From Terriglobia bacterium (GTDB taxonomy: Bacteria; Acidobacteriota; Terriglobia; Terriglobales; Acidobacteriaceae), in assembly GCA_020073495.1 (NCBI GenBank), contig JAIQFD010000002.1, positions 620,001 to 684,000 on the forward strand: a DNA stretch of 64,000 nt, given 5' to 3'. Each line of letters opens with the position of its first letter. Positions within the stretch are counted from its first letter, which is position 1. Under the pieces are notes generated by a model. The model did no database searches and was not told where the DNA came from. It saw only the letters and a program-made list of their open reading frames with translations. Both the position numbers and the translations under genes were made by a program. This document shows, piece after piece, positions 43,696-64,000 of this stretch.

Positions 43696-45390
43696 ATGCC
43701 GGACCAACCATTTATCCAGTTCGACCCTGGCAGGATGTCTCCAGAGCAGTTACGCCATGCCTTCGCTGGTCTGCTGCCCGGCCAAGCCACTCGCGAGGAG
43801 CGGATCTCCGCCATCGAGGCTGCCCTGGGAAGCCCCATGGGGCGGGCGCTGCGGGCCGACATGGGAACGTGGATCGTGGACAACCTCGTTCCTGCCGAAC
43901 ACCTGGTCCCGGAGGCCTACGCGGCATGGCGAGCCCCGGTACGAGATGCCATGCTGTTCGTGGTCGCCCACCTATCGGACGCGCGCCTCGCGCCCAAGCT
44001 CCTGGAACAGATCGAGCTGCCTCCCAGGACACATCCGGAGACGCGTTTGCTGCGGCTCATCGCCAAGGTCCCCGGCCTGCAAAAACTCGGCCAGGTGCTG
44101 GCGCGAAACCGGCATCTCCTTCCGGCCCTGCGCAAGGCGCTCTCGAGATTGGAAAACGGCATCCGCGACGTGGACGCGGCAGGGATCTGCGAGATCATCC
44201 GCCGGCAACTGGGTGCGCGGATCGGGAAATTCGCGGTGGAGATCAGGCCGGCCGTGCTGTCGGAAGCCAGCGTCAGCGCCATCATCCGTTTCACCTGGCG
44301 CAATCCCGAGACCGGCGAACGGGAGCGGGGAGTCTTCAAGGTCCTGAAGCCGCACATCCCTGCATGCTTCGCTGAAGACATGGCAATGCTGCAGGAACTC
44401 GCTCAATACTTCGGACGAAGGCATCGCGAGTACGGTCCGGGAGCTCGCCTGATCCCGGATACATTCAAGAAAGTCCGCAGGTTGTTGCAGCACGAGGTGG
44501 ATTTTGTCCGCGAGCAGAAGACATTGGTCGAAGCTGGGGCGCTCTACCGGGGAATTTCAGGGGTCCGGGTCCCGCGCGTGATGCAGCCATTATGCACGGC
44601 CACGATCACGGCGATGTCCGAGGAGGCCGGGTCCAAGGTGACAGACGCAGCCGCCCGCATGCCGGCATGGCGACGCAGCCGCGTGGCCGACCAGCTGGTG
44701 GAAGCGCTGGTCGCCGTCCCCCTGTTCGCATCGGGAGAGCTTTCGCTGTTTCATGCCGACCCTCACGCCGGCAACCTGCTGTACAACGGCGCCACCGGGC
44801 AATTGATCCTCATCGATTGGGCGTTGCGGGAACGGTTGAGCCGCGATCAACGGCGCCACCTGGCGCTGCTGTTCCTGATGGTCGCATTGCGCGATCCGGT
44901 CGGAGCATCGAACGCCATCACCGCGCTGGGAGAGCAGCGGGGGCGGCGCGGTGCACGACAGGCGCAGACCATTCGCGATTGTGTGCGCCACTTTCTCGAC
45001 GTCCTGCCGCTGAAGCATATTCCGAGCGCGGTGGATGCCATGCGGCTGATGGAGCAGGTCGCCTTTCAAGGCATCCGGTTCCCGGGCCCCCTGGTCATGC
45101 TGTCGAAGGTGGTGTTCACGCTGGATGGCATCCTGGTGGATATCGGCGGGAGCAGCACCTCGATGGGCCTGGTGCTGGCACGCCACATCGCGCGCCATTG
45201 GCTTGCCGATCGCAAGGCATTCGCCTCGCCGCTCACTGCCACCGACTGGATCACGGTGCAATGCAGCGCGCTGCTGTACGGCAGCCGGTTATGGGTAAAG
45301 AGCGAACAGACGATCCTGAACCGATTCCTCCCGCTTGAGTCGACGACTTCGCCGCCGCGAGCGAAAGCGGCCTCGCAGGCGCGTGGCTAG
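43696..45390 (+). CDS. ABC1/UbiB-type atypical kinase
   Basis: A 564-residue protein. The ABC1 kinase-like domain is in the middle: HPETRLLRLIAKVPGLQKLGQVLARN is an ABC1-type leading segment, and FHADPHAGNLLYNGATGQLILIDWALRERL (about residue 350) has the HxDxHxGN catalytic loop and the LIDW metal-binding segment. The C-terminus is Pro/Ser-rich. UbiB-like proteins support quinone or lipid-linked biosynthesis; whether this one acts in ubiquinone/menaquinone or lipid metabolism is unknown. It is the first gene of the lipid-related region. Its TAG stop shares CTAG with the convergent lipase-like gene. Confidence 0.8.
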   Translation: MPDQPFIQFDPGRMSPEQLRHAFAGLLPGQATREERISAIEAALGSPMGRALRADMGTWIVDNLVPAEHLVPEAYAAWRAPVRDAMLFVVAHLSDARLAPKLLEQIELPPRTHPETRLLRLIAKVPGLQKLGQVLARNRHLLPALRKALSRLENGIRDVDAAGICEIIRRQLGARIGKFAVEIRPAVLSEASVSAIIRFTWRNPETGERERGVFKVLKPHIPACFAEDMAMLQELAQYFGRRHREYGPGARLIPDTFKKVRRLLQHEVDFVREQKTLVEAGALYRGISGVRVPRVMQPLCTATITAMSEEAGSKVTDAAARMPAWRRSRVADQLVEALVAVPLFASGELSLFHADPHAGNLLYNGATGQLILIDWALRERLSRDQRRHLALLFLMVALRDPVGASNAITALGEQRGRRGARQAQTIRDCVRHFLDVLPLKHIPSAVDAMRLMEQVAFQGIRFPGPLVMLSKVVFTLDGILVDIGGSSTSMGLVLARHIARHWLADRKAFASPLTATDWITVQCSALLYGSRLWVKSEQTILNRFLPLESTTSPPRAKAASQARG

Positions 45391-46304
45391 CTGGGGGCGC
45401 GACCACGCCGCTTGTCCGAAGCTTCCGCCAGGCGGTCGGCGACGATGGTGTACACGGAAGGGTTGAAAACCAGCCCGATGTGGGTGCCCGAGACCTCGAA
45501 GTCGACGTCGCTGTTGCCGGTCCGGCAATATCGCCAATCCGCGATGCCATCATCGCGGGTGTAGATCGCAGTCTCCTTCACGTGGCCGGCCATCTCGCAG
45601 CGCAAGGAATTGACGAAGTCGCAGGTGCAGTGAGACGTGTAACACTCGGGCAGGACGTCGGAACCGTGGTGGTCGAGGATCTGCCGCCGCACCGCGGATG
45701 CCACCTGCATCACCTTGTGATGGAGGACCTTCCCGCGGAAGGGAGCGGCCAGCGTGATGACCGAGGCGACGTCCTTCGGCCTCTGGGTGGCGATCGAGCG
45801 CGCCATCATGCCGCCCAGGCTGTGGCCGATCAAGTGGATCTTTCTCCGGGTCTGCTTGAGCGCTTTTTCGATGGCCTCATGAAGGCGGTACTTGATGAGC
45901 AGGTTAGGGCATTCGGCGTTCAAACCGATGCCGGAGAGATACGCGCGGTAGCCGATGCGTCCCAGCCAGGAACTCAGGTGCGTGAGATAGACGTCGTTGC
46001 CGAGGAAGCCGGGGATGACGACGACTGCCGAGCCGTCTCCGCGGGGTATGCCAAGGCCGTAAAAAACAGGCGAGGCGTGCAGGAGAAGAAGTTCGGCGCC
46101 GAACAGCACTTCTTTCCAAATTGGGATGTCAGCCTCCGCGTCATCGTTGCGGACGCTGTAGCGGTGCGGGGCCATACAGTGCGATGCCACTGTTGTTTTT
46201 TTTCTCACTCGACCGGGACCGTGGGCGACCCACATGAAAAGGTGGGTCAGTATCTCTTGTCCTGTGGATCGATGTCTACGATTTTCTTGTCGCTCGGGAA
46301 ACAC
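45387..46304 (-). CDS. Alpha/beta-hydrolase, lipase/esterase-like
   Basis: A 305-residue hydrolase. VVVIPGFLGN near residue 94 is the oxyanion-hole strand, and the nucleophile elbow GHSLGG with Ser around residue 163 is classical for triacylglycerol lipases of this bacterial type. Asp and His partners are probable at SDVDFEVSGTHIGL near 271. The start is uncertain: the longest frame begins at a GTG 46304 and no in-frame start has a good ribosome site; MAPHRYSV at 46175 is the alternative. It lies between a kinase-like and a phasin-like gene, so a storage-lipid role is plausible. Confidence 0.75.
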   Translation of the reverse strand: MFPERQENRRHRSTGQEILTHLFMWVAHGPGRVRKKTTVASHCMAPHRYSVRNDDAEADIPIWKEVLFGAELLLLHASPVFYGLGIPRGDGSAVVVIPGFLGNDVYLTHLSSWLGRIGYRAYLSGIGLNAECPNLLIKYRLHEAIEKALKQTRRKIHLIGHSLGGMMARSIATQRPKDVASVITLAAPFRGKVLHHKVMQVASAVRRQILDHHGSDVLPECYTSHCTCDFVNSLRCEMAGHVKETAIYTRDDGIADWRYCRTGNSDVDFEVSGTHIGLVFNPSVYTIVADRLAEASDKRRGRAPS

Positions 46305-48014: not shown

Positions 48015-49667
48015 CTACGCGCCGATGGCCGCATGGATTGCCCTGTGCTTCTGATCGCCCTCAGGCGAAGTCGCAACTTTTTCCGGAAAACGGATCACTG
48101 GCGTTGTCGGCTTGGCGGCCGGCGCAGGCGGTGACATTTCGGGTGCGCTGCCATGTTGTGTCGGCAGCACGTGACTTCGCCGCGCTGGATGGTCGACACC
48201 GGTCTCCCTTTGCAATTCGGCAAAACTTGCCCGGAGGAACTTGGGAAACAGTTCAACATCGGAGACCGCGTGCACGTCGGCGGTAAATCCGAAATAGGCG
48301 GTGCCGTTGTACGTCAGGATCGCACAGTTCATGCCCATCTCGCCGCCGATCGGCACGTAGGGATAACAGGAGAGCATCTTGTGGCCGAGCAGGTACAGAG
48401 GGGTCTTCGGGCCGGGCACATTGGTGCAGATCAGATTGCATACGCTCAGCGGCAATTGGCTGGCGACGGGCCCGATCGCCGCCTGGAACGGCGCTGGGAT
48501 GGCCCCCAATAATGTGCCTGCGAGTCCGACCAGTTCCGCGACATGCGTGCTCTTTAGCAAGGCCACGTTCTCGTGTACGGCGGCGACGACACTCCGAAGC
48601 CGACGGATATCCAGCGGTATCGTGACAGGAATGAAAGTGATGTGGTTTCCCAGTTCCCCCATCTCGGACTTGGCGCGCATACTCACGGGAACAACGATCC
48701 GCAGGCGACGGCCACGTATCTTGAGGCCATGCAGTTGGACATAGCGGCGCACCGCGGAGGTCATCAAGGCCAGCACGACATCGTTGAGAGTGGCGCCGCA
48801 GGCGTGCTTGACGGCTTTCAGTTGGGCAAGCGGGATCTCCGCGCAAGCAAACTTCTGCGGACCGCGACAGACGATGTTGAATGGCAACCGCTCGGTCGGT
48901 CCAAGCAATTCCGGAAGCAGCCGGTTCAGATCCTGAAGGGACGGGATCGGCGTATCGGAGTTGAAAGGAACGTTTAATGCGGGTACCGGTACCGCCGTCT
49001 CTTCCTCTTTTTCCGCAGCGGCGACCAGATGCTGGGCGATATTCAGCAACTGCGATTCCGCGGTCAGCACCCGTTGCACAGCGTTGAAACAGGAGTCGAC
49101 GAGGCATTGCAGAACCGATTGCGGGTGCTGGCCGTTGGTCGGCGCAGGCGTCCGCTTTCCGGCCGGCAGGACCGGTCGAACCGGGCTCGAGTCCATCAAA
49201 ACGGTCATCAGTCCAACCCCCGAGAGACCATCGGCCATCGAGTGATGCACCCGGGTCAGAATGCCGGTGCGATTCCCTTTCAGCCCTCGGAGCAAGGTCA
49301 AATCCCAAAGCGGCCGCGCGCGATCCATGGTGGAGCTCAGGATGCGGGAGGCAACGGTCCTCAGCTCAGCTTCGGTGCCGCGCCTGAGCGTCACCTCACG
49401 GACGTGATTGCGTATGTCGAAGCCGCGATCGTACTGCCACGATGGCAGTCCGACGTTCATGGGCGGGGCTACGACGTGCTGGCGATAGCGCGGGATGAGC
49501 GGCAGTTTCGATTCAACGTAGCGGATGCAGTCCTGCAGCGAGATCCGGCCCTCGAAGATGGAGAGCGAGGCGACGTGAAGTGGCATGCCCTCGCGTTCCA
49601 GATTCAGAAAAAGAGAGTCTCCGAAGGAGAGGCAATCATTCTGTTCGGAAGCTGCAGTGGTGCTCAT
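48015..49667 (-). CDS. Wax ester synthase / diacylglycerol acyltransferase
   Basis: A 550-residue WS/DGAT-family acyltransferase that makes triacylglycerol or wax esters from acyl-CoA. The active-site motif HHxxxDG is at residues 141-147 (VHHSMADG). PLWD near residue 120 and NVPGP near residue 430 are family features; the C-terminus is rich in proline and lysine. It is a WS/DGAT of normal length. It begins 4 nt inside the upstream GMC oxidoreductase stop (ATGA), so the two are translationally coupled. The gene is next to phaR, consistent with storage-lipid metabolism. Confidence 0.9.
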   Translation of the reverse strand: MSTTAASEQNDCLSFGDSLFLNLEREGMPLHVASLSIFEGRISLQDCIRYVESKLPLIPRYRQHVVAPPMNVGLPSWQYDRGFDIRNHVREVTLRRGTEAELRTVASRILSSTMDRARPLWDLTLLRGLKGNRTGILTRVHHSMADGLSGVGLMTVLMDSSPVRPVLPAGKRTPAPTNGQHPQSVLQCLVDSCFNAVQRVLTAESQLLNIAQHLVAAAEKEEETAVPVPALNVPFNSDTPIPSLQDLNRLLPELLGPTERLPFNIVCRGPQKFACAEIPLAQLKAVKHACGATLNDVVLALMTSAVRRYVQLHGLKIRGRRLRIVVPVSMRAKSEMGELGNHITFIPVTIPLDIRRLRSVVAAVHENVALLKSTHVAELVGLAGTLLGAIPAPFQAAIGPVASQLPLSVCNLICTNVPGPKTPLYLLGHKMLSCYPYVPIGGEMGMNCAILTYNGTAYFGFTADVHAVSDVELFPKFLRASFAELQRETGVDHPARRSHVLPTQHGSAPEMSPPAPAAKPTTPVIRFPEKVATSPEGDQKHRAIHAAIGA

Positions 49668-51544
49668 GCGCTGCCTCCACGCTCAGCCGTACCGCTGGTC
49701 GAGCGCCTTATGAAAGGTCTTATGAATCCGTCAATGAAGACATCTAAGACCCCATTATCGTAGTTCCGCTTTGGGACGGGCCGCACGGACATCATCGAGG
49801 ATAATTTTCGACGGTTCCAATTCGGTACTGTTGAGTTCTTCAACAGGTCGCGTGATGACGTTTTGCCCGGATTGCCAGCTCGTTCCCGGGAATCCTCGGC
49901 GGTGTCTTGCCAAGCTGTCTCTGTAGCTGCTGGAATGAAACTCATCGCTCGTTCGGCCAGGGCGGTGATCGTCAAGCTCGGATTGACTCCAAGATTCGCG
50001 GCCACCACCGATCCATCGCACAGGTACATATTCGTGTAGCCGTAGACCCGGTGACGATGATCGACCACTCCGGTGTGGCGCGAATCGCCGATCACGCACC
50101 CTCCAATACAGTGCGCGGTGCCGGGTACATTGAACAGGATCTCCGGCAACATGCTCATCGCGGTCCCGCCCGTGAGACGTGCAAAATGTCCGGCGAACTG
50201 GTTTGCCTGCGGGATAAACGTGGGCACCTTGTCGCCACGGCTGACGAGAGACTTCGTGAAGGGCCAGAACCACGGGCGTCCCCAGCGCATATCGATGTGG
50301 CCCTCCAGCGCCTGCATGCAGAGCAGGATGATGCTCTCGCGCGCCCAGCCCCAGGGTTGAAACAACCGCAGCGTTTTGAACGGATGCCGCAGCAACGCCG
50401 CGGCGACATTCTGGATCCAGAGCGCGATCCGGACGGGGCCGGGACGGCCGTCGGTGAGGATGGTGGCCAGCAGGCTCATCGCATCCGAGCCGCTGGGATA
50501 TCGCACGGCTTCGATGTGCGTGTGCTGGTCGATGTAGAGGCCGGACCCGATCGCGACCCCTTGCGAGAGGTCCTGGCGAGACCGCGGGATCCGCACGCCG
50601 ATCAGCGATTCGGAATTCGTCCGCACGCGCCGGCCCAACTGATCGCTGATCGCCGGCAAGGAGCCCGTTTCCTTCAGATGGAACAACAGTTCCATGGTGC
50701 CGAGCGACGATGCGGAAAACACGACGCCGCGGCAGTTGAAGCGTCTCCGGTTTCGGCGTATCCAAGCCGTCGAGCAGACGGTATGCACCTCGTACCCATC
50801 GCGACCGTCCGCGACACCGTTCCGCGCGCACACGTCGACCACCCGGGTCTCCGGGTACACCCGCGCGCCATGCTTTTCGGCGAGGTACAGATAATTGAGG
50901 TCCAGGCTGTTCTTGGCGCCGTGGCGACAGCCCATCATGCAGCCGCCGCAGGCGATGCACGTCGTTCGCTCCCTCCCTTCTCCTCCGAAGAACGGGTCCG
51001 GCACGGTCTTGCCGCCGGAGTCTCCCTCGGCCGGCTGGAAGATGGACACGCTCGTGCGATAGAAGGTGTGGCCGAGGTTGAGCGATCCTGCGGCTTGTTT
51101 CAGCAGATCGTCGGCGGGGCCGAGGATCGAATTGGGCACGACGCCGAGCATCCGGGAAGCCGAGTCGTAATGCCGCGGCATCTCCGCCTTCCAATCCGAA
51201 AGCCCCGCCCACGAGCCCATGTCCCAGATCGTGTCCGGCGGCCGCAGCAGAGTGCAGGCAAAGGTGATGGAGCCGCCGCCGACCGCGCAACCGTGCAGGA
51301 TCGTTACGTGCTTGAAGAAACGCATGTTGAAGAAGCCGCGCAGCCCCAGTTTCGGGCGCCAGAACCAACGATGGATGGCCCAGCTGGTGCGGGGAAAATC
51401 GTCCGCCTCCCAGCGCCGCCCCATTTCCATGACCGCGACTCGATATCCCTTTTCCGTGAGACGGTGCGCAGCCACGCTGCCGCCGAAGCCGGACCCAATG
51501 ACGATGAAGTCGAAATCGAATTCGTCACGATGAGGAGCCGTCAT
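49664..51544 (-). CDS. GMC-family FAD oxidoreductase (cholesterol-oxidase-like)
   Basis: A 626-residue flavoprotein. The FAD motif FIVIGSGFGGSVAAHRLTE is at about residue 12. A Cys-rich insertion CIACGGCMMGC near residue 203 resembles the ferredoxin-like segment of this GMC group, and the substrate-binding C-terminal motif HCIGGCVIGDSRHTGVVD...CDGSVVAANLGVNPSLT is near 480-550. Cholesterol oxidase, alcohol or sterol-type dehydrogenases share this form. The start at ATG 51544 is chosen from the FAD-fold start. It precedes the WS/DGAT gene with a 4-nt overlap; a role in making alcohols or ketones for esters is conjecture. Confidence 0.85.
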   Translation of the reverse strand: MTAPHRDEFDFDFIVIGSGFGGSVAAHRLTEKGYRVAVMEMGRRWEADDFPRTSWAIHRWFWRPKLGLRGFFNMRFFKHVTILHGCAVGGGSITFACTLLRPPDTIWDMGSWAGLSDWKAEMPRHYDSASRMLGVVPNSILGPADDLLKQAAGSLNLGHTFYRTSVSIFQPAEGDSGGKTVPDPFFGGEGRERTTCIACGGCMMGCRHGAKNSLDLNYLYLAEKHGARVYPETRVVDVCARNGVADGRDGYEVHTVCSTAWIRRNRRRFNCRGVVFSASSLGTMELLFHLKETGSLPAISDQLGRRVRTNSESLIGVRIPRSRQDLSQGVAIGSGLYIDQHTHIEAVRYPSGSDAMSLLATILTDGRPGPVRIALWIQNVAAALLRHPFKTLRLFQPWGWARESIILLCMQALEGHIDMRWGRPWFWPFTKSLVSRGDKVPTFIPQANQFAGHFARLTGGTAMSMLPEILFNVPGTAHCIGGCVIGDSRHTGVVDHRHRVYGYTNMYLCDGSVVAANLGVNPSLTITALAERAMSFIPAATETAWQDTAEDSRERAGNPGKTSSRDLLKNSTVPNWNRRKLSSMMSVRPVPKRNYDNGVLDVFIDGFIRPFIRRSTSGTAERGGSA

Positions 51545-51642
51545 GACCCGGCTCCGGGTCGTGCCCGTTCCGCTTGGCGGCGTCCTAGACATCCTGGCGA
51601 AGGCGCGGTATCGTCCGTCGCTGGGACGAGGATCTCCTGCCA

Positions 51643-52095
51643 ATGCGAAAGCTCACCGAAGTCGAAGAGGCAACGGCGTTGATGAACGAGGCCGTGGAGT
51701 GGTCTGTGATGAGATGGCTGAAGGAAAAGAAACGGGTGCGCAAGATAGCGGACCGCGCCAACGATGCTCTCGACCAATCGATGGAGCAGACGAAAGCCCG
51801 CTGGAGTCAGGATCTGCTGGCTGCCTACGCTGAATTGGCCGGACCGGAAATTGCGAAGGACGCACGGACCGCCGATGGCGGATTGCGGGCCTTTGCCAAG
51901 GAGATGAAACGCGCCGCCGAAGACGCCTATCGCGCCAGGATGGACGCCGAGGACACGTTTGACGAAGCCGAGAGCCAATTAAGCACCCGTTTGGCCCGAG
52001 AGGGATGTCGAAAAGCCATTCACTCCTGGGATCTGCACGAGAAGGCCATCCGAAAAGCCGAAACCGCGATCGGCTCACGTCAATTCGCCAGCTAA
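51643..52095 (+). CDS. Uncharacterised helical protein
   Basis: A 150-residue protein, predicted highly helical and charged (KKRVRKIADRANDALDQ, KEMKRAAEDAYRARMDAEDTFDEAE). No known motif is recognised. There is a possible coiled coil over residues about 85-120. It lies divergently from the GMC gene (98 bp) and converges with a 76-residue gene. The charge pattern could suit a granule-surface or DNA-associated protein but nothing supports a function. Confidence 0.55.
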   Translation: MRKLTEVEEATALMNEAVEWSVMRWLKEKKRVRKIADRANDALDQSMEQTKARWSQDLLAAYAELAGPEIAKDARTADGGLRAFAKEMKRAAEDAYRARMDAEDTFDEAESQLSTRLAREGCRKAIHSWDLHEKAIRKAETAIGSRQFAS

Positions 52096-52366: not shown

Positions 52367-52741
52367 TCATGCCGCGACTAGGTCTCCGCTTTTCGCAGCC
52401 GCACGGCCACGCCGTGAAGTGGTCGAGGGTGGTATTTCTGCACTCGCGGCCTGGGGCGGCTTCAGTTTGTATGCGCCGGCGGTTCGTTCCTCAAACAGGA
52501 GTCGGCGCAAAGAACGAAGATCATTGAGGATCCGAACGCCTTTGTTCACGTGGCCCTCAAGCTTTTCCAGGTTGTACGACGCTACGCGCAAGGCATCGAG
52601 ACGGCGCGAACCCTTGGCACTCTCTCGTTCTACATCTAGCTCGATTTCGTGCTTCGCTTCCGCGACACACTCGGACAAGACTCGTAAGAATTCGTGGGCG
52701 CTCTCGATGCCGTCGAAGGGGGTTCCGGAATGCTGGTCCAT
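52367..52741 (-). CDS. Small uncharacterised protein
   Basis: A 124-residue protein: helical first 90 residues (SAHEFLRVLSECVAEAKHEIELD, LRVASYNLEKLEGHV), then a Lys/Arg/Ala-rich tail (KLKPPQAASAEIPPSTTSRR). The start ATG at 52741 is chosen over an upstream frame-start. It may be transcribed together with the 76-residue gene 36 nt downstream. No function seen. Confidence 0.5.
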   Translation of the reverse strand: MDQHSGTPFDGIESAHEFLRVLSECVAEAKHEIELDVERESAKGSRRLDALRVASYNLEKLEGHVNKGVRILNDLRSLRRLLFEERTAGAYKLKPPQAASAEIPPSTTSRRGRAAAKSGDLVAA

Positions 52742-52909
52742 GCGGATTCTCCACTTCAAGGTTCGAATGGTTGACGCATCGATAGACGGCGGCGGGCTAC
52801 CTCGCGCTAGAGATTCTCATGTAGTGCGATGTGCGTCTGTGATGTGGGGCACGAAGTCCGGTGATGCGGCGGTGACGCTGTATTCCGCTCCGGCCACATT
52901 GCCATGCGC

Positions 52910-52927
52910 CTGTGACGCGCCTCACAG
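52910..52927. promoter_or_regulatory. CRP-family palindrome
   Basis: CTGTGA-CGCGCC-TCACAG: the perfect TGTGA-N6-TCACA arrangement of CRP/FNR-type sites. It is centred at 52918.5; the CATAAT box at 52948-52953 predicts a start at about 52960, putting the site at -41.5 (class II activation). Confidence 0.65.
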
Positions 52928-52953: not shown

Positions 52954-53063
52954 CGTTATCCGCCAGCCGGGCATGATCCGACTCGGCTGCCGAGTCGCCA
53001 CTCCCGACCGCAATCGCCCGAGTACCTGAGGAGTCCCAGACTTGGGTGCGGAGGCAGCCCCAT

Positions 53064-54818
53064 ATGGACGACAGCGCAGCAGCCGTCAGCGCTCTCCCCG
53101 TCTCCAGTGATCCCATCGCGGAGTCGGCAGCTAAGCCGAGCGCCGGTCTCGACGACAAAAGTCTTGAACTCAGCTTGAAATCGCTACGGGACTTCGCCAA
53201 GGACCGTCTGCCGGACGAAAAGCTACTGGAACTTGACGCGCGGGACGAGTGTCCGCTCGACATTGTCCGCAGCATGTGCGGCGCGGAACTGGGCATTCAG
53301 CTCCTCTTTATTCGTGAAGAGTTCGGCGGCATGGGTGGGGGCGCGTTCGATGTGTATCGCGTGTGCGAAGAGATGGCCCGGATCGACCTGGGCATCGCGA
53401 CGGCCGTGTTGGCGACATTCCTGGGCAGCGAGCCGATCAGCGTCGGCGGCACCGCCGAGCAAAAGAAATACTGGATGACTCGCATCGCCGACGAGGGGTT
53501 GCTCTTCGCCTATGCCGCGACCGAACCGGAAGCCGGAAGCGATCTGGCGGCGCTCCGCACCACCGCGGAGCCAGTCACGAAGGACGGTCGGGTCATCGGC
53601 TACAAGATCAACGGCAGCAAACAATGGATCAGCAACGGTGGCATCGCGGATGCGTACAGCGTACTGGCGACGGCGCCCGGGGGGCCCAGCTGGTTCATCG
53701 TTGAAAAGGGCGCGCCAGGGCTGAGCCACGACAAGCCCGAGAATAAGCATGGGATCCGCACCAGCAACACCGCCGCCCTGTCCTTTGACGACGTCGATGT
53801 GGATGTCGACCGCCTCGTCGGCGGTGTGGAAGGCCTGGGGCTGATCCAGGCACAGGCGGTGTTCGGATACACGCGCTTGATGGTGGCGGCGTTTGGGCTC
53901 GGCGCCGGCTGGGCCGCGCTCGATCGAGCAATCCCTTACGCGGCGGAACGTATCCAGGCGGGGTCGCCGCTCTCGGAAAAGCAGGGATACACCCACAAGC
54001 TGATCGTGCCGCATGTGGCCCGCCTGGAGGCCAGTCGTGCCTACATCGAAGAATCGGCGGAGCGCATCGACTCCGGCGAAGGAAGCTTGAACACCGAAGG
54101 GTCGATCGCCAAGTACATGGCGTCCGAAGCCGGGAATCTGGCTGCCGACGCGGCCATCCAGGCGCTCGGCGGCTACGGCTACACGCACGAATACAAGGTG
54201 GAGAAGATCAAGCGCGACGTCCGCATCACCACGATCTACGAAGGCACTTCGGAGATCATGGAGATGACCATCAGCCGCGACCGCTGGCAGCTCCACCTGA
54301 AGACGCGCGGGCAGCATTATCACGACGAGGCGCGCCGGCTGGAAGCTCTGCACGCCCGCTATCCGGCTGCTGGTGCTGATGTCGCGGGGCTGGCTTTCCA
54401 TGCCCTGGCCGAAGTGATGGAAAAGGCCCGCCTGGCTCGCCTGACACGGTATCAACACATCCTTTTGCGCCTGGGCGAGCTGATTGCTTTCGCGGAGTGC
54501 GCCGGCAGTCTCGTTCGCCGCGTCGGTCTTGCCTCGGAGAACCGGCTGAACGAAAAAGCCAACCGGCGCTTCGACGTCACGGCGCTAGCCGCCCTGAGCC
54601 GCACCTTCGCCCGCGAGGCGGCGCTGAAAGTAGCGGAAGACGGCTTGCGCTGGATCACTGGGGCCGCCGCGATCAGCGATCCCGAGATGGCAGCATTCGA
54701 AGCGGCCTTGGGACTGGCCAAGATCCATCGTGCGCAGGCAGGGCTGATCGCGGACATGGATCTGATCGCCGACGTCTTGTTCGATCGCAACACCACGCGC
54801 GCAGGACAGTCCGGATAG
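53064..54818 (+). CDS. Acyl-CoA dehydrogenase
   Basis: A 584-residue FAD enzyme, longer than ordinary short/medium-chain ACADs and near the VLCAD size. [26 protein letters not shown] starts the fold (about residue 85); [15 protein letters not shown] near 155 and [15 protein letters not shown] near 190 are classical. [20 protein letters not shown] and IYEGTSEI near 395 supply the catalytic Glu region. The C-terminal extension of about 170 residues is helical. A GGAGG ribosome site precedes ATG 53064. It heads an operon with the synthase and could desaturate or degrade its acyl product; its substrate is inferred only. Confidence 0.9.
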
Positions 54819-54867: not shown

Positions 54868-57800
54868 ATGGAAAAGACCGCTGGACGAGCGACGGCGATC
54901 GTCGGCGTGGGAGCCGTCCTACCCGATGCCCCCAACGCAGCGGCATTCTGGGAGAACGTGAAAAAGGGACGCGACAGCATCAGCGAAGTCACGCCCGACC
55001 GCTGGGACCCGGCGCTTTTCTACGATCCCGACCGCACCGCTCCCGACATGACTTACTCGAAGATCGGTGGCTGGGTGCGCGAGAGCGCATGGGATCCCGT
55101 GAAGTGGCACCTGCCCATCCCGCCGCGCGTCGCGATTGCGATGGACCAGACGCAGAAATGGGCAATCGCTGCCACCCGCGAAGCCCTGGAAGACTACGGG
55201 TATCCCAAGCGGACGCTGGACCCCGATCGCACCGCGGTGATCCTGGGCAACGCGATGGCCGGAGAACAGCAGTTCCTCACCGTCTTGCGCGCGTATTTTC
55301 CCGAGTACGCGCGCGAACTGGCGGAGACGGCTGGATTTGCCGCTTTGCCCGAGGCGCTTCGCCGCGAGATCACGCGCGAATTGCAGCAGCGGATCGGCAA
55401 GCATTTTCCCGAGATCACGGAAGATACGATGCCGGGCGAACTGGCCAACTGCATCGCCGGCCGCATCGCCAACCTCTACAACTTTCATGGCCCGAACTAC
55501 GTTGTGGATGCCGCGTGCGCGTCGGCGATGGCGGCGATCAGCGCGGCGGTCGACGGGCTGGCGGAGAACGATTTCGACCTGGTGGTCACCGGCGGCATTG
55601 ACCACAACATGGGCGCATCGACATTCATCAAGTTCAGCAAGATCGGCGCGCTTTCGGCGACCGGCACTCGGCCCTACGCGGACGGAGCCGATGGCTTCGT
55701 CATGGGAGAAGGCGGTGTCATCCTCTTGCTGAAGCGTCTGGCTGACGCCGAACGGGACGGCGACAAGATCTATGCGGTGCTGCGCGGCATCGGCGGCTCG
55801 AGCGACGGCAAGGGCAAGGGGATCACCGCTCCCAATCCCATCGGCCAGAGGTTGGCGATCCAGCGAGCCTGGCAAAATGCCGGGCTGTCGCCCGCCACCG
55901 CCACGTTGTTCGAAGGCCACGGCACTTCCACCAAGGTCGGCGACGTGGTCGAAGTCGAATGCCTGGCGGAGGTGCTCAGCAGCTTTCATCTGCCGGCGAG
56001 ATCGGTGGCCCTGGGCTCGGTGAAATCGAATATCGGCCATCTCAAAGGCGCCGCCGGGGCGGCTGGACTTCTGAAGACCGCGCTGGCACTGCGCGACAAA
56101 GTGCTTCCGCCGAGCCTGCACTGCGAGCACCCCAATCCCGACATCGACTTCGCCCACACTCCGTTGTTCGTCAACTCCGAGCTGAAACCGTGGACCGCTC
56201 CAGCCGACAGTCCGAGGCGCGCCGGAGTGAGCGCCTTTGGTTTCGGCGGGACGAACTTCCATCTCGTCCTGGAAGAACACATTCCTCAGAAGCTGACCGG
56301 CAACCACAAGCGCTCGGTGACGGTCAGTGCGATCCCGCCCACTCTGGCGAAGGACGCAACTATGAATGTCAAAGAGCTTTCCTGCAGTTCTCAGGTTGGA
56401 TCCTCGTTCAAAGCGCCGTTGCGCGGTGCGCTGGTGATCGGCGCCGCCACCGAGGCCGCATTGGCCGAGCGTCTGCGCGCCGTGCAAAAGAACGCTGAGG
56501 CCGGCCGGGCCCCTGCACCGACGATTCCCGCGGAATCGGATCTGCGTGCGCCCGAACGCGTGGCCATTGACTATGCCGACGCGCCTGAATTGGCGGACAA
56601 GTCTGCCCGGGCGCTCAAGGCGCTCCAGGCCAATCACGGAGGAACCTGGAAGGCTCTGCGCGCCAAAGGCATCTTCCGCGGTCGTGGTGCTGCGCCCAAA
56701 GTCGCGTTCCTGTACACGGGTCAAGGGTCGCAGTACGTGAACATGCTTCGGCCGCTCCGCGACACCGAACCGATCGTCGCTCAGACCTTTGCCGAAGCGG
56801 ATCGCGCGTTGGCTTCTTTGCTCGGCAAGCCGCTCAGTGAGTACATCTTTGTCGACGAAACCGACGGCGCGGTCGCCCGGGCTGAACAGGATCTGCGCCA
56901 AACCGCCATCACCCAGCCCGCCGTGTTAGCCACCGACATTGCGTTGACTCGGCTCCTGGCGGCTTACGGCATCACCCCAGACTTAACCATGGGCCACAGC
57001 CTCGGAGAGTACGGAGCCCTGGTCGCTGCCGGCGCCCTCCCGTTCTCCGACGCGCTGGAAGCGGTCAGCGCGCGGGGCCGCGAAATGACACGGGTATCGG
57101 TAGCGGACAACGGCCGCATGGCCGCCGTCTTTGCTCCGCTCGAACAGATCGAGCGGATCTTGAAGTCCGTCGAAGGCTATGTGGTGATCGCGAACATCAA
57201 CAGTGAGAACCAGGCAGTCATCGGGGGCGCGAGCAAAGCGGTCGAGCAGGCAATCGACGTTTTCCAGAAAGCGGGATGCCACGTGATCGCGTTGCCGGTC
57301 AGCCATGCCTTCCACACCTCGATCGTCGCGCCGGCCAGCGAGCCGCTGCGCGAGGTGCTGACGCGGCTGCGGATGCAATCGGCACGCGTCCCGGTCATCG
57401 CGAACGTGACCGGCGAGTTTTATCCGATGGGCGCTGACGTCGTACCGCAGATGCTCGACATCTTGGCGCGGCAGGTGGCCTCTCCCGTGCAATTCGTCAA
57501 GGGCCTGCGCACGCTGTACGAAGCCGGTGCGCGCATCTTCGTCGAAACCGGGCCGAAAAGAGCATTGCAGGGATTCGTGGATGATGTGCTCGGCGAGCGC
57601 GACGACGTGATGTCGCTCTTCACCAATCATCCAAAACGCGACCTCGAATCCTTCAATCAGGCGCTGTGCGGCTTGTATGCGGCCGGGCTGGGCCACGGAC
57701 AAGCGACAACCGCGCACGAACTCTCCACTAAGCCCGTGAAGTCAGTGTTCGCTGTCGGATCGCCGACGTATGTCCCAAAAGCCGCTTCCATCCCACGTTC

Positions 57801-60800
57801 TCAGGACGATATCCCGACCGGTTCGCCGGTGGTGATCACGGGCGCGTCGTTGGGACTGCCTGGCACCGAGCGCATCTTCGACGACTCGAATGTCAGCCGC
57901 ATCCTGCGCGGTGATCAATTCATCGATGTGATCCCGACCCGCTTTCGCCGGGCCATGCTCGACAAACACATCACGCGGCTGGTCAAGAGCGACAACGGTG
58001 GACCGACGTTCGAGTCCATCGGCGACCTGGCGGACGTGATCAAGCTGGCCGGCCGTGGCGGCGCATTCGACGTGGAAGAAGAATTCGGTGTCCCCGCCGA
58101 TCGCGTGGCTGCCCTCGACCGGGCCACCCAATTAGCGATCGCGGCCGGCATCGACGCGTTGCGCGACGCCGGCATCCCTCTGGTCATGCGGTACAAGACG
58201 ACCAGCAAAGGCACGCTGCTGCCGGATCGGTGGATGCTGCCGGAGTCCTTGCGCGACGACACGGGCGTGATCTTCGCCTCCGCCTTCCCTGGCTACGACG
58301 CTTTCGCCCAGGACTTTTCGCGGTACTACGCCGACCTCGCGCGCCACCAGCAGATCGCAACGCTGGAGAGCCTCCGCTCACGAGCGGCGGAGATCAATGG
58401 TCATTCGACCCTGGGTCAGGAGATCGAGCGCCGCATCAACGAACTACGCGCGGCCATCGAGAAGGACCCGTACGTCTTCGATCGGCGGTTCCTGTTCCGG
58501 ATCCTCTCCATGGGACATTCACAATTTGCCGAGTTCATCGGTGCGCGCGGTCCCAACACCAACGTCAATGCCGCCTGCGCGAGCACCACGCAAGCGCTCG
58601 CCGTGGCGGAGGACTGGATCCGCACCGGGCGGTGCCGCCGGGTCATCGTGGTCTCGGCCGACGACGTCACTTCCGACAATCTCATAGAGTGGATCGGCGC
58701 CGGTTTTCTGGCCAGCGGAGCGGCAGCGACCGATGAGGTCGTGGAACAGGCTGCCATTCCCTTCGATCGCCGCCGGCACGGCATGATCATCGGCATGGGC
58801 GCCGCGGCCCTGGTGGTCGAGAGCGCAGAGGCCGTGCACGAACGCGGCATCCGTCCCATCTGCGAGGTGCTGAGCGCGGTGATCGCCAACAGCGCCTTCC
58901 ACGGCACGCGCCTCGATGTACAGCACATCGGCGACGTGATGGAGGGCCTCGTCTCCCAGGCGGAGTCGCGCCGCGGCATAAAACGCGGAGAGATCGCGTC
59001 ACAGATGGTGTTCGTCTCTCACGAGACCTACACACCGGCACGCGGCGGCAGCGCCGCGGCGGAGATCCACGCCCTGCGCCGCGTCTTCGGCGAGAACGCG
59101 GATCGCATCGTGATCGCCAACACCAAGGGCTTCACCGGCCACCCGATGGGAACGGGTATCGAAGACGTTGTCGCGGTGAAAGCGCTGGAGACCGGCGTGG
59201 TGCCGCCAGTGGCCAACTTCAAGGAAGTCGACCCCGAGTTGGGCGCCCTGAACCTGTCAAAGGGCGGCATTTATCCGGTCGAATACGCTTTGCGTCTGGC
59301 CGCCGGGTTCGGCTCGCAGGTCTGCATGGCGCTGTTGCGTTGGGTGACCAGCAAAGACGGCCTCCGCCCCAGCCCGAACGCTCTGGGATATTCATCTCGT
59401 GTTGACGATAAACATGCATGGGAAACCTGGCTCAGCAAGATCGCCGGCTTCCCGAACGTAGAGCTCGAAGTGGTCCACCGCACCCTGCGCGTGCGCGATC
59501 AGCGGCAGGCAGCCCGGGTCGAAGAAGTTGTTCCGGCGGTCCGAAAGATTCCATCGCCCGCACCTACGGTGCAGGTACCGCCGCCCCCGCCAGCCCCGCA
59601 GTCCAAACCCGCCGCACCGCCGCCAACCGTCGCGGTCGCCGAACCAAAGGCGCCACCTCAAGTCGCCGCACCGGTTGCACCTGCCCCATCAAAACCCGCT
59701 CCGACCGGAGATTCAGTGAAACAGCGGATCCTGGCGATCGTGGCCGAAAAAACCGGCTACCCGGTCGACATGCTCGACCTTGATCTGGACCTCGAGGCGG
59801 ATCTGGGTGTCGATACCGTCAAGCAGGCGGAAGTGTTCGCCAGCGTCCGCGAAGCTTACGGCATCGCGCGCGACGACAAACTGAAGTTGCGCGACTTCCC
59901 TACCCTCGCGCACGTGATCGGGTTCGTGCACGAGCGCCGCCCGGAGCTGCGCAGCGAAGCGTCGTCTCCCGCGACGGGATCAATCGCACCAGAAACACCC
60001 AAGCAGGAGATCAAGGTCGTCGCTCCGGCGCCCCCGATTCCACCGGCAGAAGACGGCGCCGAGGATGCCGTGAAGGAGCGCGTGCTGGCCCTGGTCGTCG
60101 AGAAGACCGGATATCCGCAGGACATGCTGGACCTGGACCTGGACCTGGAAGCAGACCTCGGCATCGACACCGTCAAGCAGGCGGAGTTGTTCGCGGCGAT
60201 CCGCGAGATCTACAACATCCCTCGCGATGAGAGCCGCAAGCTGCGCGATTATCCGACGTTGGCGCACGTGATCCGGTTCGTTCACGAGAAGCGGCCGGAC
60301 CTCGCCGCTGCGGCTCCGGCGAGAATCGAGCCGATCGATTCTCGCGCGATTCCCGTGCCTGCTCCGGTTCCGATCGCAGGCGAACCTGCCAGCGATGACG
60401 CCATCAAGGAAAAGGTCCTTGAGATCGTTGCCGAGAAGACCGGTTACCCCAAGGACATGCTGGACCTGGACCTCGATCTGGAAGCAGACCTCGGCATTGA
60501 TACCGTGAAACAGGCGGAGATGTTCGCGGCCGTGCGCGCGGCATACGACATCCCACGCGATGAACATCTCAAGCTGCGCGACTTCCCAACCCTGGCTCAC
60601 GTGATCCAATTCGCGCAACAGAGACGGTCGGGGCAGAAACCAGCGCCCCCGCCCCCCGCTTCCGAGTTGCGGGGGATCCTTGAACCGGCTGCGGAAAGTC
60701 CGGTAGCTGCGCCGGTCGCAGCGCCTATGCCGACTTCGGTCGCGCGGCCAGCGCCCGCATCGTTCGACGCCGCAAACCGTATTCCGCGCCGCGTGCCCGC

Positions 60801-63297
60801 GCCGATCCTCCGACCTCCGCTCAACATCTGCAAGGATACGGGAGTGAGTCTGGGCCGCGGCAGCCGCGTGGTCCTCATGCCGGATCAAGGCGGTGTCGCC
60901 GACGCTCTCGCGCAACAGCTGCGGAGCAAAGGCGTTGAAGTCCTTCGCCTCGAAGCCGTAGCCGATGCGGGTGCGCTGACCAGCCGTCTGAAGGACTGGA
61001 TCTCGGACGGTCCCGTACAAGGGGTCTTCTGGCTGCCCGCCCTCGATCACGAAGGCTCGCTCAGCGCAATGGAGCCCGCAACCTGGCACGAAGCTGTGCG
61101 GGTCCGGCTGAAATCGCTGTACACGACCATGCGTGCTCTGTACGAGCAAGTGGCGGCGCCCGGCACGTTCCTGGTATCGGCGACGCGGCTGGGCGGCCAG
61201 CATGGTTACGACGAAGCCGGAGCAGTCGCGCCTTTGGGTGGCGCGGTCGTCGGGTTCACCAAGACGTACAAGCGCGAGCGTCTCGACGTGCTCGTCAAGG
61301 CGGTCGATTTCGAGATCGAGGCCAAGCCGTCGGAGCTCGCCGGCATCCTGATCGAGGAGACGCTGCGCGATCCCGGCGCGGTCGAGATCGGTTACAGCAA
61401 AGGTCAGCGCTGGTCCATCGGATTGCAGGAACGACCTGCGGCCGACGGTCAGCCCGGGCTGAAGCTCGGTAAGGATACTGTTTTCGTGATCACCGGCGCA
61501 GCGGGAAGCATCGTCTCGGCTATCACAGCCGACCTGGCGGCGGCTTCCGGCGGTACCTTCTACCTGCTCGATCTTGTTCCCGAGCCTGATCCGAACGATC
61601 CGGATCTCAAGCGCTTCGTGAGCGACAAGGACGGACTTAAGCGCGACCTGTTCGCGCGCATTCAGGCTCGTGGCGAGAGGGCCACGCCGACGCTGGTGGA
61701 GAAGGAACTGGCGGCGCTGGAGCGGGCACACGCCGCGTGTAGCGCCATCGAGGCAGTACGAGCGGCTGGCGGCACCGCGCTCTATTTCAGCGTGAATCTC
61801 ACCCATGGCGACGAGGTCGCCATGGTCATGCGCGAAGTGCGCGAGCGCAGCGGCCGCATCGACGTATTGCTGCACGCCGCCGGCATGGAGCGCAGCCATC
61901 TCCTGCCCGATAAGGAGCCGCGGGAATTCGATCTCATCTTCGACGTCAAGAGCGACGGGTGGTTCAACCTTCTGCACGCCATCGGCGACATGCCTTTGGG
62001 GGCGACGGTGGCGTTCAGCTCGATCGCCGGCCGTTTCGGCAACGCAGGACAGACGGATTACAGCTCCGCCAACGATCTGTTGTGCAAGATCACGTCGAGC
62101 TTCCGCACCACTCGTCCCGCGACCCGCGGCATCGTCATCGACTGGACCGCCTGGGGCGGCATCGGTATGGCGACGCGCGGTTCCATTCCCAAGATGATGG
62201 AAGTTGCAGGGATCGACATGCTGCCGCCGGAAGCGGGCATCCCCTTGATCCGCCGCGAGCTCACCGAAGGGGGGACGAGCGGTGAGATCATTATCGGCGA
62301 GCGCCTCGGCATTCTGTTGAGTGAATGGGACGCGACCGGTGGGCTCGATCCAAAGGCAGTTGAGATTCCCGGCGCGGCGACCGGACCAATGGTGGGCAAC
62401 ATCACAGCCATGACCGTGGGAGAAGGCCTCACCATCGAGACGACGCTGGACCCGGCCGTCCAACCCTTCTTGCACGATCATCAAATCGACGGCACGCCGG
62501 TGCTGCCCGGCGTCATGGGCATCGAGGCGTTTGCGGAGGCCACGCTTTGCATGCTGCCGGATTGGCACGTCGAGAGCGTCGAAGACGTGAACTTCCTCGC
62601 GCCCTTCAAGTTCTACCGCAGCGAGAAGCGCGCGTTGACGATCCAGGTGGCGCTCCATCCGCTCGGCGACAGCTTGGAGGCGGACTGCCGGCTGACCGGT
62701 CGTCGGGTGCTTCCGGGGCAACCCGATCCCCAGATCACCACCCACTTCACCGCCCGCCTGCGGCTGGCGAAACATCCGCCCAAAGGTATGCCCGGTACAC
62801 CCCCGGCACGTCTGGCTGGATCGATCATCGAAGCCGCCGACATCTATCGCGTCTATTTCCATGGACCGGCCTACCGCGTCATCGAGGAGGCGTGGTGGGA
62901 CGAGAACCGGATCGTCGGGCGCATGACCAAGGACTTGCCCAGCAATCACCAACCACCCGAGCAGCCGACGGTCATGGCGCCGCGGCTAATCGAGCTCTGC
63001 TTCCAGACTGCTGGTCTCTGGGAGCTCGGGATGCAAGGACGCTTTGGCCTGCCGCTCCATGTCGATCGGGTCTGCATCTTGCGCACACCGGATCTCGCCG
63101 AAGGCCGTCTGCATGCCGTCGTCACTCCGAACCCGGAGCAAGGCACATTCGATGCGGAGGTCCTGGATACGGCGGGAACGCGCTATCTCCAGTTGACCGG
63201 CTATCGCACAGTCGCCCTGCCGGGTGGCGTTGATGCCGACGCGTTGAAGGCGCTGCAGTACGTCGTGCGCGAGGAGTGCGAGGTCGAACCCGTGTGA
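54868..63297 (+). CDS. Iterative type I polyketide/fatty-acid synthase, KS-AT-KS-ACP3-KR-DH
   Basis: A 2809-residue single-chain synthase. KS1 (residues about 8-470): Cys217 in DAACAS, His351 in EGHGTS, His391 in NIGHLKG. AT (about 610-930): GHSLGEYG with Ser711 and HAFHT with His816. KS2 (about 986-1493): Cys1237 in NAACASTT, His1385 in SHETYT, His1425 in TKGFTGH, so a full triad but unusual motifs. Pro/Ala-rich linker, then three ACP-like domains (about 1616-1690, 1734-1806, 1845-1918) whose attachment residue is Thr (1650, 1768, 1879) in D-L-G-x-D-T-V-K-Q. KR (about 2000-2490): [10 protein letters not shown], Ser2384, Tyr2398, Asn2402. DH (about 2500-2800): H2538QIDG with Pro2547; the partner motif reads E2709LCFQ2713 instead of DxxxQ. 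Related to PfaA-type PUFA synthases. Confidence 0.9.
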
Positions 63298-64000
63298 CGG
63301 CCGCAGATCGCTCGCTCGCATCGAGCAGTTGCATGGATACCTATTGGCTGGAGCAGACAGAGGCCGAGCTGCCCGAGGACGATGCGTGGCTCAGCGCCGT
63401 CGAACTCTCGCGCCTGCGCGGCCTGCGTTTTCCCAAGCGCCGAGCCGACTGGCGGCTGGGACGCTGGACGGCGAAGTGTGCAGTGGCCACGTACTTGAAC
63501 CTGCCCAGTGATGCACGCACGCTTGCCACCATCGAGATACGCGCGGCGGCATCGGGAGCGCCTGAGGTTTTCCTCGCTGACAAACCTGCTGCGGTCGTCA
63601 TTTCACTGAGCCACAGTGCCGGCACAGCGGCGTGTGCCTTGGCGTCTCCCGGCGCGTCGTTGGGTTGCGATCTGGAGATCGTCGAGCCGCACAGCGACGG
63701 TTTCATCGCTGATTACTTCACCGCAGACGAGCAGGCGTCGATCGCGCGGACCGTCGCCGCCGACCGGTCGCTGCTTGTGGCCCTCCTCTGGAGCGCGAAG
63801 GAGAGCGCACTGAAAACGCTGCGCGAGGGACTTCGGCTGGACACCCGCTCCGTGCAGGTTAGCTGTGGCCCGGAGCAGCAGCAGTGCACCCGGGCCTGGC
63901 ATCCGCTGCAAGCGCGTTGTGCGGACGGTCAGGTCTTTCACGGATGGTGGCAACGCAATGGCAACCTGGTGCGAACCTTGATTGCCGTTCCGGCGCCGTC
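63294..64000 (+). CDS. Sfp-type 4'-phosphopantetheinyl transferase (3' end outside window)
   Basis: Reads from a GTG (63294) overlapping the synthase TGA by 4 nt (GTGA), or from ATG 63333, to the window end without a stop. The product contains [15 protein letters not shown], the metal-binding GCDLEIV (about residue 120 from ATG 63333) and [15 protein letters not shown], the three conserved Sfp/HetI-type motifs. It transfers 4'-phosphopantetheine from CoA to carrier domains, and here it should activate the three ACPs just upstream. Overlap with the synthase suggests coupled translation. The C-terminal part is cut by the window edge. Confidence 0.9.

Follow-up and report, generated by a model that had tools for sequence, protein, structure and literature searches.

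A Type R-like synthase operon with threonine at its carrier sites and an intact second ketosynthase in a Terriglobia bacterium

A 64,000-nucleotide stretch of the genome of a Terriglobia bacterium (positions 620001-684000 of contig C2, in an assembly of 3.70 Mb and 8 contigs; hereafter the window) carries an operon in which a CRP-like site is followed by genes for an acyl-CoA dehydrogenase (ACAD), a PfaA-like iterative type I synthase and a phosphopantetheinyl transferase (PPTase), a layout borne out by open reading frame (ORF) calls and Pfam/NCBIfam matches. The architecture of the synthase is already known; its biochemical features are new and testable. The two strangest features of the locus, both unremarked in a first-pass annotation made by a model from the letters, are acyl carrier protein (ACP) domains with Thr at the attachment position and an isolated second ketosynthase (KS2) whose active site is intact. 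We tentatively favour, as a reading that falls a little short of probable, an iterative Type R lipid synthase that uses malonyl units, carries its chains on Thr, has a PPTase of its own and relies on the ACAD for enoyl reduction in trans. This proposal builds on what the DNA itself contains: the domain order, intact active sites, Thr motifs, a gene partnership and the lack of a PfaD match.

The synthase ORF (54868-63297, + strand) encodes 2809 aa with no internal stops. Pfam placed on it two ketosynthase (KS) stretches, an acyltransferase (AT), three PP-binding stretches, a ketoreductase (KR) and a PS-DH/PKS_DH_N dehydratase (DH); with NCBIfam, this matches the order KS1-AT-KS2-ACP1-3-KR-DH given by the first-pass annotation. 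Pfam also agrees that the synthase lacks an enoyl reductase (ER) domain, finding none in the window synthase beyond SDR-type matches that fall on the KR. All domains lie on the + strand. KS1 (aa 4-480; 54877-56307) has the residues C217-H351-H391, and the AT (aa 614-914; 56707-57609) has S711, R736 and an HAFH motif that we take to be of the malonyl type. KS2 (aa 984-1516; 57817-59415) has the triad C1237-H1385-H1425 and a FabF-like predicted fold. The KR (aa ~2207-2432; 61486-62163) contains a Gly-rich motif with G2210 and G2213, together with S2385, Y2398 and N2402, and the DH (aa 2507-2788; 62386-63231) contains H2538, G2542 and P2547, with E2709 and Q2713 conserved. Across 54 aligned synthase ORFs, the catalytic residues were identical wherever the column was filled, the DH Gly excepted (49 G, 3 other, 2 gaps). 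This set comprised all synthase ORFs longer than 2400 aa, including a few cut short by the end of a contig; L107 and L110, which were treated as duplicates of G005 and G091, and the partly unread G257 were left out. A broken synthase in the window is ruled out by the stop-free ORF and the catalytic residues present.

The three ACPs of the window (ACP1, 59707-59943; ACP2, 60061-60297; ACP3, 60394-60627; + strand) all carry the motif LEADLG[VI]DTVKQAE, the Thr being encoded by ACC at 59815-59817, 60169-60171 and 60502-60504, respectively. Using a pattern open to any residue at the attachment position, we found Thr in 228 of 228 ACP motifs from 86 loci, four duplicate loci having been removed; the codons were ACC (112), ACG (97), ACA (11) and ACT (8). 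A pattern allowing S, T, A, C or G returned Thr in 242/242 motifs of relatives. Thr was likewise present in all 243 ACPs, duplicates included, in which the column was covered in an alignment to a hidden Markov model (HMM), four truncated domains being unscorable; the model was seeded from the family, and very different ACPs may escape it. The number of ACPs per synthase ranges from 1 to 6, with the whole surrounding motif kept.

Control carriers read differently. The ACP next to FabF in the same genome reads DLGADSLD, with Ser, and PfaA-like synthases of the same phylum (G048, G060, G105 and G134) read LGIDS, with Ser in 5 of 5 ACPs under the same HMM. In PDB alignments, the family Thr stands opposite the Ser of the PigH ACP and of a second ACP. 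Thr also occurs in G257 and G268, of KS-KS-AT-KS2 type, and in G102 (KS-KS-AT without KS2), whose KS domains did not group with the family KS1 in a tree. Because the substitution spans 86 loci and all four Thr codons, a local mutation or assembly error is ruled out, and for the loci examined Thr at the carrier site is firm at the level of sequence. The phosphopantetheine-bearing Ser is treated as a hallmark of carrier proteins in the passages cited here (PMC7949117, PMC4882568), and a review of polyunsaturated fatty acid (PUFA) synthesis has the PPTase loading serine (PMC4882568). No natural Thr carriers were found in full-text literature searches, most subscription journals being outside their scope.

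A chain-length factor (CLF) is a KS-like domain that lacks the KS nucleophile; the CLF-like domain of G105, for example, has Glu at the Cys position. In KS2, by contrast, the Cys-His-His triad is intact in 54/54 synthase ORFs longer than 2400 aa, and it is therefore not a degenerate CLF. In a tree of 67 KS rows, all 23 KS2 sequences formed one group with the third KS of two sister synthases (SH-aLRT 100), beside two FabF rows and apart from KS1, PfaA KS and the CLF-like domain. A branch of 3.9 changes per column leads to the group, and the program cautions that long branches come together at this point; without the sister rows the SH-aLRT value of the KS2 clade is only 54. The KS1 rows of the window, other Acidobacteriota and additional phyla, 23 in all, formed a single clade (SH-aLRT 100). 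An AlphaFold2 model of KS2 (pLDDT 85.2), used for fold comparison only, had FabF as its top PDB match (TM-score 0.84 by target length, 22% identity) and predicted a FabF-like fold plus a helical insertion. Judged from the tree and the model, KS2 is a very divergent group of KAS-II fold: it resembles FabF/KAS II in its predicted fold and in having FabF rows as its nearest neighbours, and differs in its long branch, its insertion and its place inside a megasynthase.

The first-pass annotation held that this arrangement was unlike known synthases. It does, however, match the Type R of Shulse and Allen 2011, a single PfaA homologue of the order KS-MAT-CLF-ACP(3-6)-KR (MAT, malonyl-acyltransferase) with a PPTase downstream and, as presented there, no named product (PMC3098273). 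The holders given were Acidobacteria, Elusimicrobia and Chloroflexi, with the genera Koribacter, Solibacter, Elusimicrobium and Roseiflexus, and an acetyl-CoA carboxylase (ACC) gene in Koribacter (PMC3098273). Unlike that listing, which has no DH, the window synthase has one after the KR. The middle domain was labelled CLF in 2011, whereas its triad is intact in the loci compared here; our tree rows include no sequence from the named 2011 strains (Koribacter, Solibacter, Roseiflexus), and this comparison of triads does not extend to them. The terms 'acyl-CoA dehydrogenase', 'threonine' and 'serine' do not occur in the main text of PMC3098273 (0 hits for each in a term search).

Kinship with PfaA was correctly called: the best NCBIfam model for the synthase is PfaA TIGR02813, at 953.9 bits under a cut-off of 1010.1, and this model is borderline for the family, relatives G091 and G101 passing it with summed pieces. 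The window synthase shares with PfaA-E PUFA synthases the KS-AT-tandem ACP-KR-DH order and differs in its additional KS2, in Thr rather than Ser in the ACPs, in having no PfaB or PfaC gene beside it and in the genome's having no PfaD-type enoyl reductase (no TIGR02814 match at E 0.001). RerA of Rhodococcus erythropolis PR4 is similar in its KS-AT-ACP2-KR-DH order, its lack of ER and its PPTase-bearing partner RerB (PPT-Y-TE); as described, the Rer system differs in having no second KS, a thioesterase (TE) in the partner and no ACAD (PMC11563203). The swf sponge family has the order KS-AT-DH-ER-KR-ACP and is hence different (PMC3908369). The first-pass annotation had named as one refutation a characterised synthase of the same domain order and known product; no such synthase was found, full-text searches for operons of this type giving nothing apart from PMC3098273 among the matches listed, so the annotation stands on this point.

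Gene neighbourhoods were compared across 100 loci remaining after removal of four duplicates, of which 83 have more than 1.5 kb upstream, 63 more than 6.5 kb upstream and 55 more than 2.5 kb downstream. The Sfp/HetI-type PPTase gene, supported by Pfam, NCBIfam and homologues, probably starts at 63333 (+ strand), runs to the window's end at 64000 and ends beyond it at 64073, its last 73 bases falling outside. A partner PPTase had been predicted, and its membership of the ACPS superfamily is confirmed; the predicted overlap with the synthase gene holds only from GTG 63276 and vanishes from ATG 63333, the better start by eye and the one near which homologues begin. A GCD[LV]E motif is present in 30/34 PPTases of family loci, and the window's genome has two further ACPS-superfamily genes. 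Among the 55 loci with room downstream, 32 have a PPTase gene near the synthase, 42 an ACC gene and 52 at least one of the two; no ACC gene lies beside the synthase in the window's own genome. According to Pfam, the G005 ACC combines biotin carboxylase and biotin-carrier domains in one polypeptide with an ACC_central domain, which we take to be of eukaryotic type. The operon ACC of relatives has the same single-chain composition (L032:15819-19501), with a length of 1794-1905 aa in four apparently complete loci (G091, G079, L111 and G082). A KAS III gene occurs near the synthase in 5/104 loci; in G276, G065 and G300, of one acidobacterial genus, a FabH-like KAS III gene directly upstream of the ACAD encodes a candidate starter enzyme.

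The predicted upstream ACAD is confirmed by Pfam at 53046-54818 (+), with NCBIfam and PDB matches. It has 590 aa from a GTG start, followed by an ATG at 53064, and shows a C-terminal extension and a YEGT motif, presumably that of the catalytic Glu. Of the 83 loci with room for it, 80 have an ACAD gene immediately before the synthase gene, 74 scored by script and six by hand (L114, L136, L140, L145, L163 and L166, where the synthase ORF is extended at its 5' end and overlaps the ACAD, which is in its usual position). The three exceptions are G257, which is of sister type and has one KS more, G360, which is truncated and partly unread, and L141. The last comes from a Frankiaceae metagenome-assembled genome (MAG) with two Type R-like synthases (L141 and L135), of which the L141 copy has no adjoining ACAD and is followed by what appears by eye to be an acyl-CoA ligase gene. 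A correlation between absence of the ACAD and absence of KR/DH was dropped: G257 has a broken frame after a stretch of unread residues, and a different frame encodes a KR/DH-like part.

The best PDB matches of the ACAD are mostly ordinary short- to very-long-chain acyl-CoA dehydrogenases, and they include CarC, a subunit of the caffeyl-CoA reductase-Etf complex (6fah). The top NCBIfam name of the operon ACAD is acryloyl-CoA reductase, and since the match reaches 233.5 of 640 bits, the protein is not a member of that family. CarC illustrates that ACADs linked to electron-transfer flavoprotein (ETF) and reducing enoyl-CoA exist. Among the 63 loci whose upstream flank exceeds 6.5 kb, EtfA, EtfB and Fe-S oxidoreductase genes accompany the synthase in 27 (Acidobacteriota 23/35, Actinobacteria 4/16); the actinobacterial proteins are 28-34% identical to those of G005 and occupy the same neighbourhood. 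In one relative, Pfam confirmed the CCG and Fer4 domains of the Fe-S protein as well as ETF and ETF_alpha; a hydrophobic N-terminal segment of the Fe-S protein, taken as its membrane part, was recognised only by visual inspection. The window operon has no EtfAB and membrane Fe-S oxidoreductase genes next to its ACAD. In Syntrophomonas, an EtfAB and membrane Fe-S oxidoreductase pair has been modelled as an EtfAB:menaquinone oxidoreductase working in the oxidative direction (PMC5101538).

The synthase family is widespread yet unstudied, sporadic inside families and wide across phyla. KS2 alone marks it: 3/31 near genomes score above 990 bits and the others at most 97.4, and 24 of 396 genomes of the phylum have KS2 at E <= 1e-60. 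The nearest named relatives of KS2 are in Terriglobia MAGs at 76-80% identity, and on this basis the window is assigned to Acidobacteriota. In a scan of a genome collection of 84,980 species by its own description, at least 468 relatives were confirmed among at least 586 matching stretches, and the best 80 of the at least 468 were kept. Actinobacterial holders include Mycobacterium spp., Kineosporia, Paractinoplanes, Planobispora, Nonomuraea and Trebonia; others include Myxococcota, Calditrichota, Bacteroidota and proteobacterial MAGs. Horizontal spread of the family is likely. Sister synthases L205 (G102), L206 (G313), L214 (G257) and L082 (G268) carry a pair of KS domains in tandem at the N terminus, ahead of the AT. 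The leading one of the pair has Q or Y in place of the first catalytic His in G257 and G313, and G102 also matches an AAT (penicillin acyltransferase-like) domain.

In the reading that we favour, the PPTase would load phosphopantetheine onto the Thr of the three tandem ACPs. KS1 and KS2 would each catalyse condensation, perhaps acting on chains of different length or in initiation, and KR and DH would yield a trans-2-enoyl thioester. The missing enoyl reduction would then be supplied in trans by the ACAD running in reverse, fed by ETF, and in many relatives the neighbouring EtfBA and Fe-S oxidoreductase would connect the ACAD to quinone. The acyl product may pass to storage or membrane lipids, perhaps via a neighbouring wax ester synthase/diacylglycerol acyltransferase (WS/DGAT).

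Several observations weigh against this proposal. Close EtfA and Fe-S partners are missing from the genome of the window; its one EtfA is distant (37% identical), Fe-S matches are partial, and EtfB was not searched. An ER domain was absent by Pfam from L141, G257 and G102, which are ACAD-less or of sister type (PF13561, 'Enoyl-(ACP) reductase', falls on the KR there), and this weakens the simple idea that the ACAD replaces a lost ER domain. The ACADs associated with polyketide synthases that are considered here act in the other direction: TcsD, whose requirement for an ACP-bound substrate is in itself a precedent for the proposal, and HliR, assayed with thioester mimics, oxidise rather than reduce, and HliR carries out gamma,delta-dehydrogenation of an alpha,beta-enoyl thioester (PMC4768178). 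RerA makes conjugated polyenes of up to C22 nonaenes with no ER (PMC11563203). Replacement of Ser38 by Thr or Cys in spinach ACP-I abolished function, according to the introduction of a secondary source (PMC9310384). Finally, a TE domain is missing from the synthase, and the operon includes no obvious release enzyme.

The precedents of RerA and HliR, together with the lack of PfaD in the window's genome, speak for a rival reading as a polyene or unsaturated-lipid synthase, in which the enzyme would build a conjugated polyenoyl chain and the ACAD would add an alpha,beta or gamma,delta double bond, its electrons leaving via ETF to quinones. We regard this as possible though somewhat unlikely. 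The TE of RerB has no counterpart in the operon; no second KS is described for RerA, in contrast to the constant KS2 of the family; and a polyene requires no dehydrogenase, yet the ACAD is near-constant. The first-pass annotation had suggested an unsaturated or hydroxylated lipid; the near-constancy of the ACAD fits a saturated product equally well.

That the best structural matches of the ACAD are mostly ordinary acyl-CoA dehydrogenases, and that 5/104 loci have a KAS III gene nearby, would suit an ACAD serving catabolism or starter supply, acting on acyl-CoA before loading or in product recycling while housekeeping FAS-II reductases perform the enoyl step. We find this distinctly improbable; the ACAD gene directly adjoins the synthase gene in several phyla, two of which also have the ETF and Fe-S genes, and such an arrangement points to a role within the pathway. 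Least probable of all is that the Thr-ACPs stay unmodified as structural or docking domains of a synthase using CoA thioesters: the spinach result and a PfaA with 1/5 ACPs changed from Ser to Ala that out-produced the four-ACP native enzyme (PMC5067506) lend it something, and the retention of 1-6 ACPs with their whole motif, the PPTase gene near the synthase in 32/55 loci and the intact KS and AT domains argue against it.

The first-pass annotation had placed the operon at 54868-64000, a span that omits both the ACAD and the CRP site named in its own title. The CRP-family-like operator TGTGACGCGCCTCACA (52911-52926) lies 135 bp before the ACAD GTG start and is an exact match to TGTGA-N6-TCACA. 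Because 1.07 sites with at most one mismatch are expected per shuffled window, a single such site means little alone. Sites of that quality within 300 bp of the operon start nevertheless recurred in 7 of 23 acidobacterial loci against 0.2 expected (binomial P 7e-10), these loci being the window and close relatives, which are not independent, and the window's own site having prompted the test; without the window the count is 6/22. The window, G148 and L099 have the exact site, and G101, L087, L103 and L146 have it with one mismatch at most. At two mismatches or fewer the excess is weaker (7/23 against 1.51 expected), and FNR-type sites were not enriched among the acidobacterial loci at that threshold (2/23 against 2.09). 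Pure chance is ruled out by the recurrence. Over all operons tested, 8/74 had a CRP-like site against 0.4 expected, including G005 at -345 in a slightly wider stretch; all eight are acidobacterial, and CRP-type regulation is accordingly confined to part of one lineage. The predicted site that the first-pass annotation noticed is thus an exact palindrome that recurs in some relatives, and in this lineage a CRP-family regulator would control the operon.

Of the storage-lipid genes said to lie nearby, the WS/DGAT O-acyltransferase holds up: it lies at 48015-49667 on the - strand, opposite to the operon, and matches Pfam and TIGR02946 (326.1 bits; cut-off 309.95). WS/DGAT matches occur in 11/104 loci, also 11/100 once duplicates are removed, and in nine of these 100 the gene is on the operon strand within 6 kb upstream. 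For the supposed phasin-like ORF (51643-52095), neither Pfam nor NCBIfam gave a match at E 0.001. Adjoining WS/DGAT is a GMC oxidoreductase gene (49664-51643, -) that passes the cholesterol oxidase model NF058674 (885.6 against 850 bits) and has a homologue of 66% identity near the synthase in L148. A small divergent ORF upstream of the operon (52367-52759, -) has no Pfam match; its homologues in G101, G148 and L087 lie upstream of the operon on the same strand. An alpha/beta-hydrolase gene (45387-46304, -), 8.5 kb upstream of the synthase, gave weak PGAP1, palmitoyl-thioesterase and lipase-type matches.

A broader proposal, which we consider unlikely as a whole, is one of orthogonal carrier chemistry, in which megasynthases of several phyla would use phosphopantetheinyl-Thr installed by a matched PPTase and, in the full form of the system, the enoyl step would draw its electrons from quinol, relayed by Fe-S protein, ETF and ACAD, and not from NAD(P)H. 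If this were true, Thr carriers could stay apart from the housekeeping Ser-ACP machinery, and lipid synthesis would be a sink for the respiratory chain. A Thr family with intact active sites makes it testable whether PPTases serve or prefer Thr, and PPTase use of Thr would give those who engineer synthases an orthogonal handle. Through the partnership of ACAD and ETF, quinone-linked enoyl reduction in a megasynthase likewise becomes testable, and Type R, listed in 2011 with no product, gains concrete partners and targets for reconstitution.

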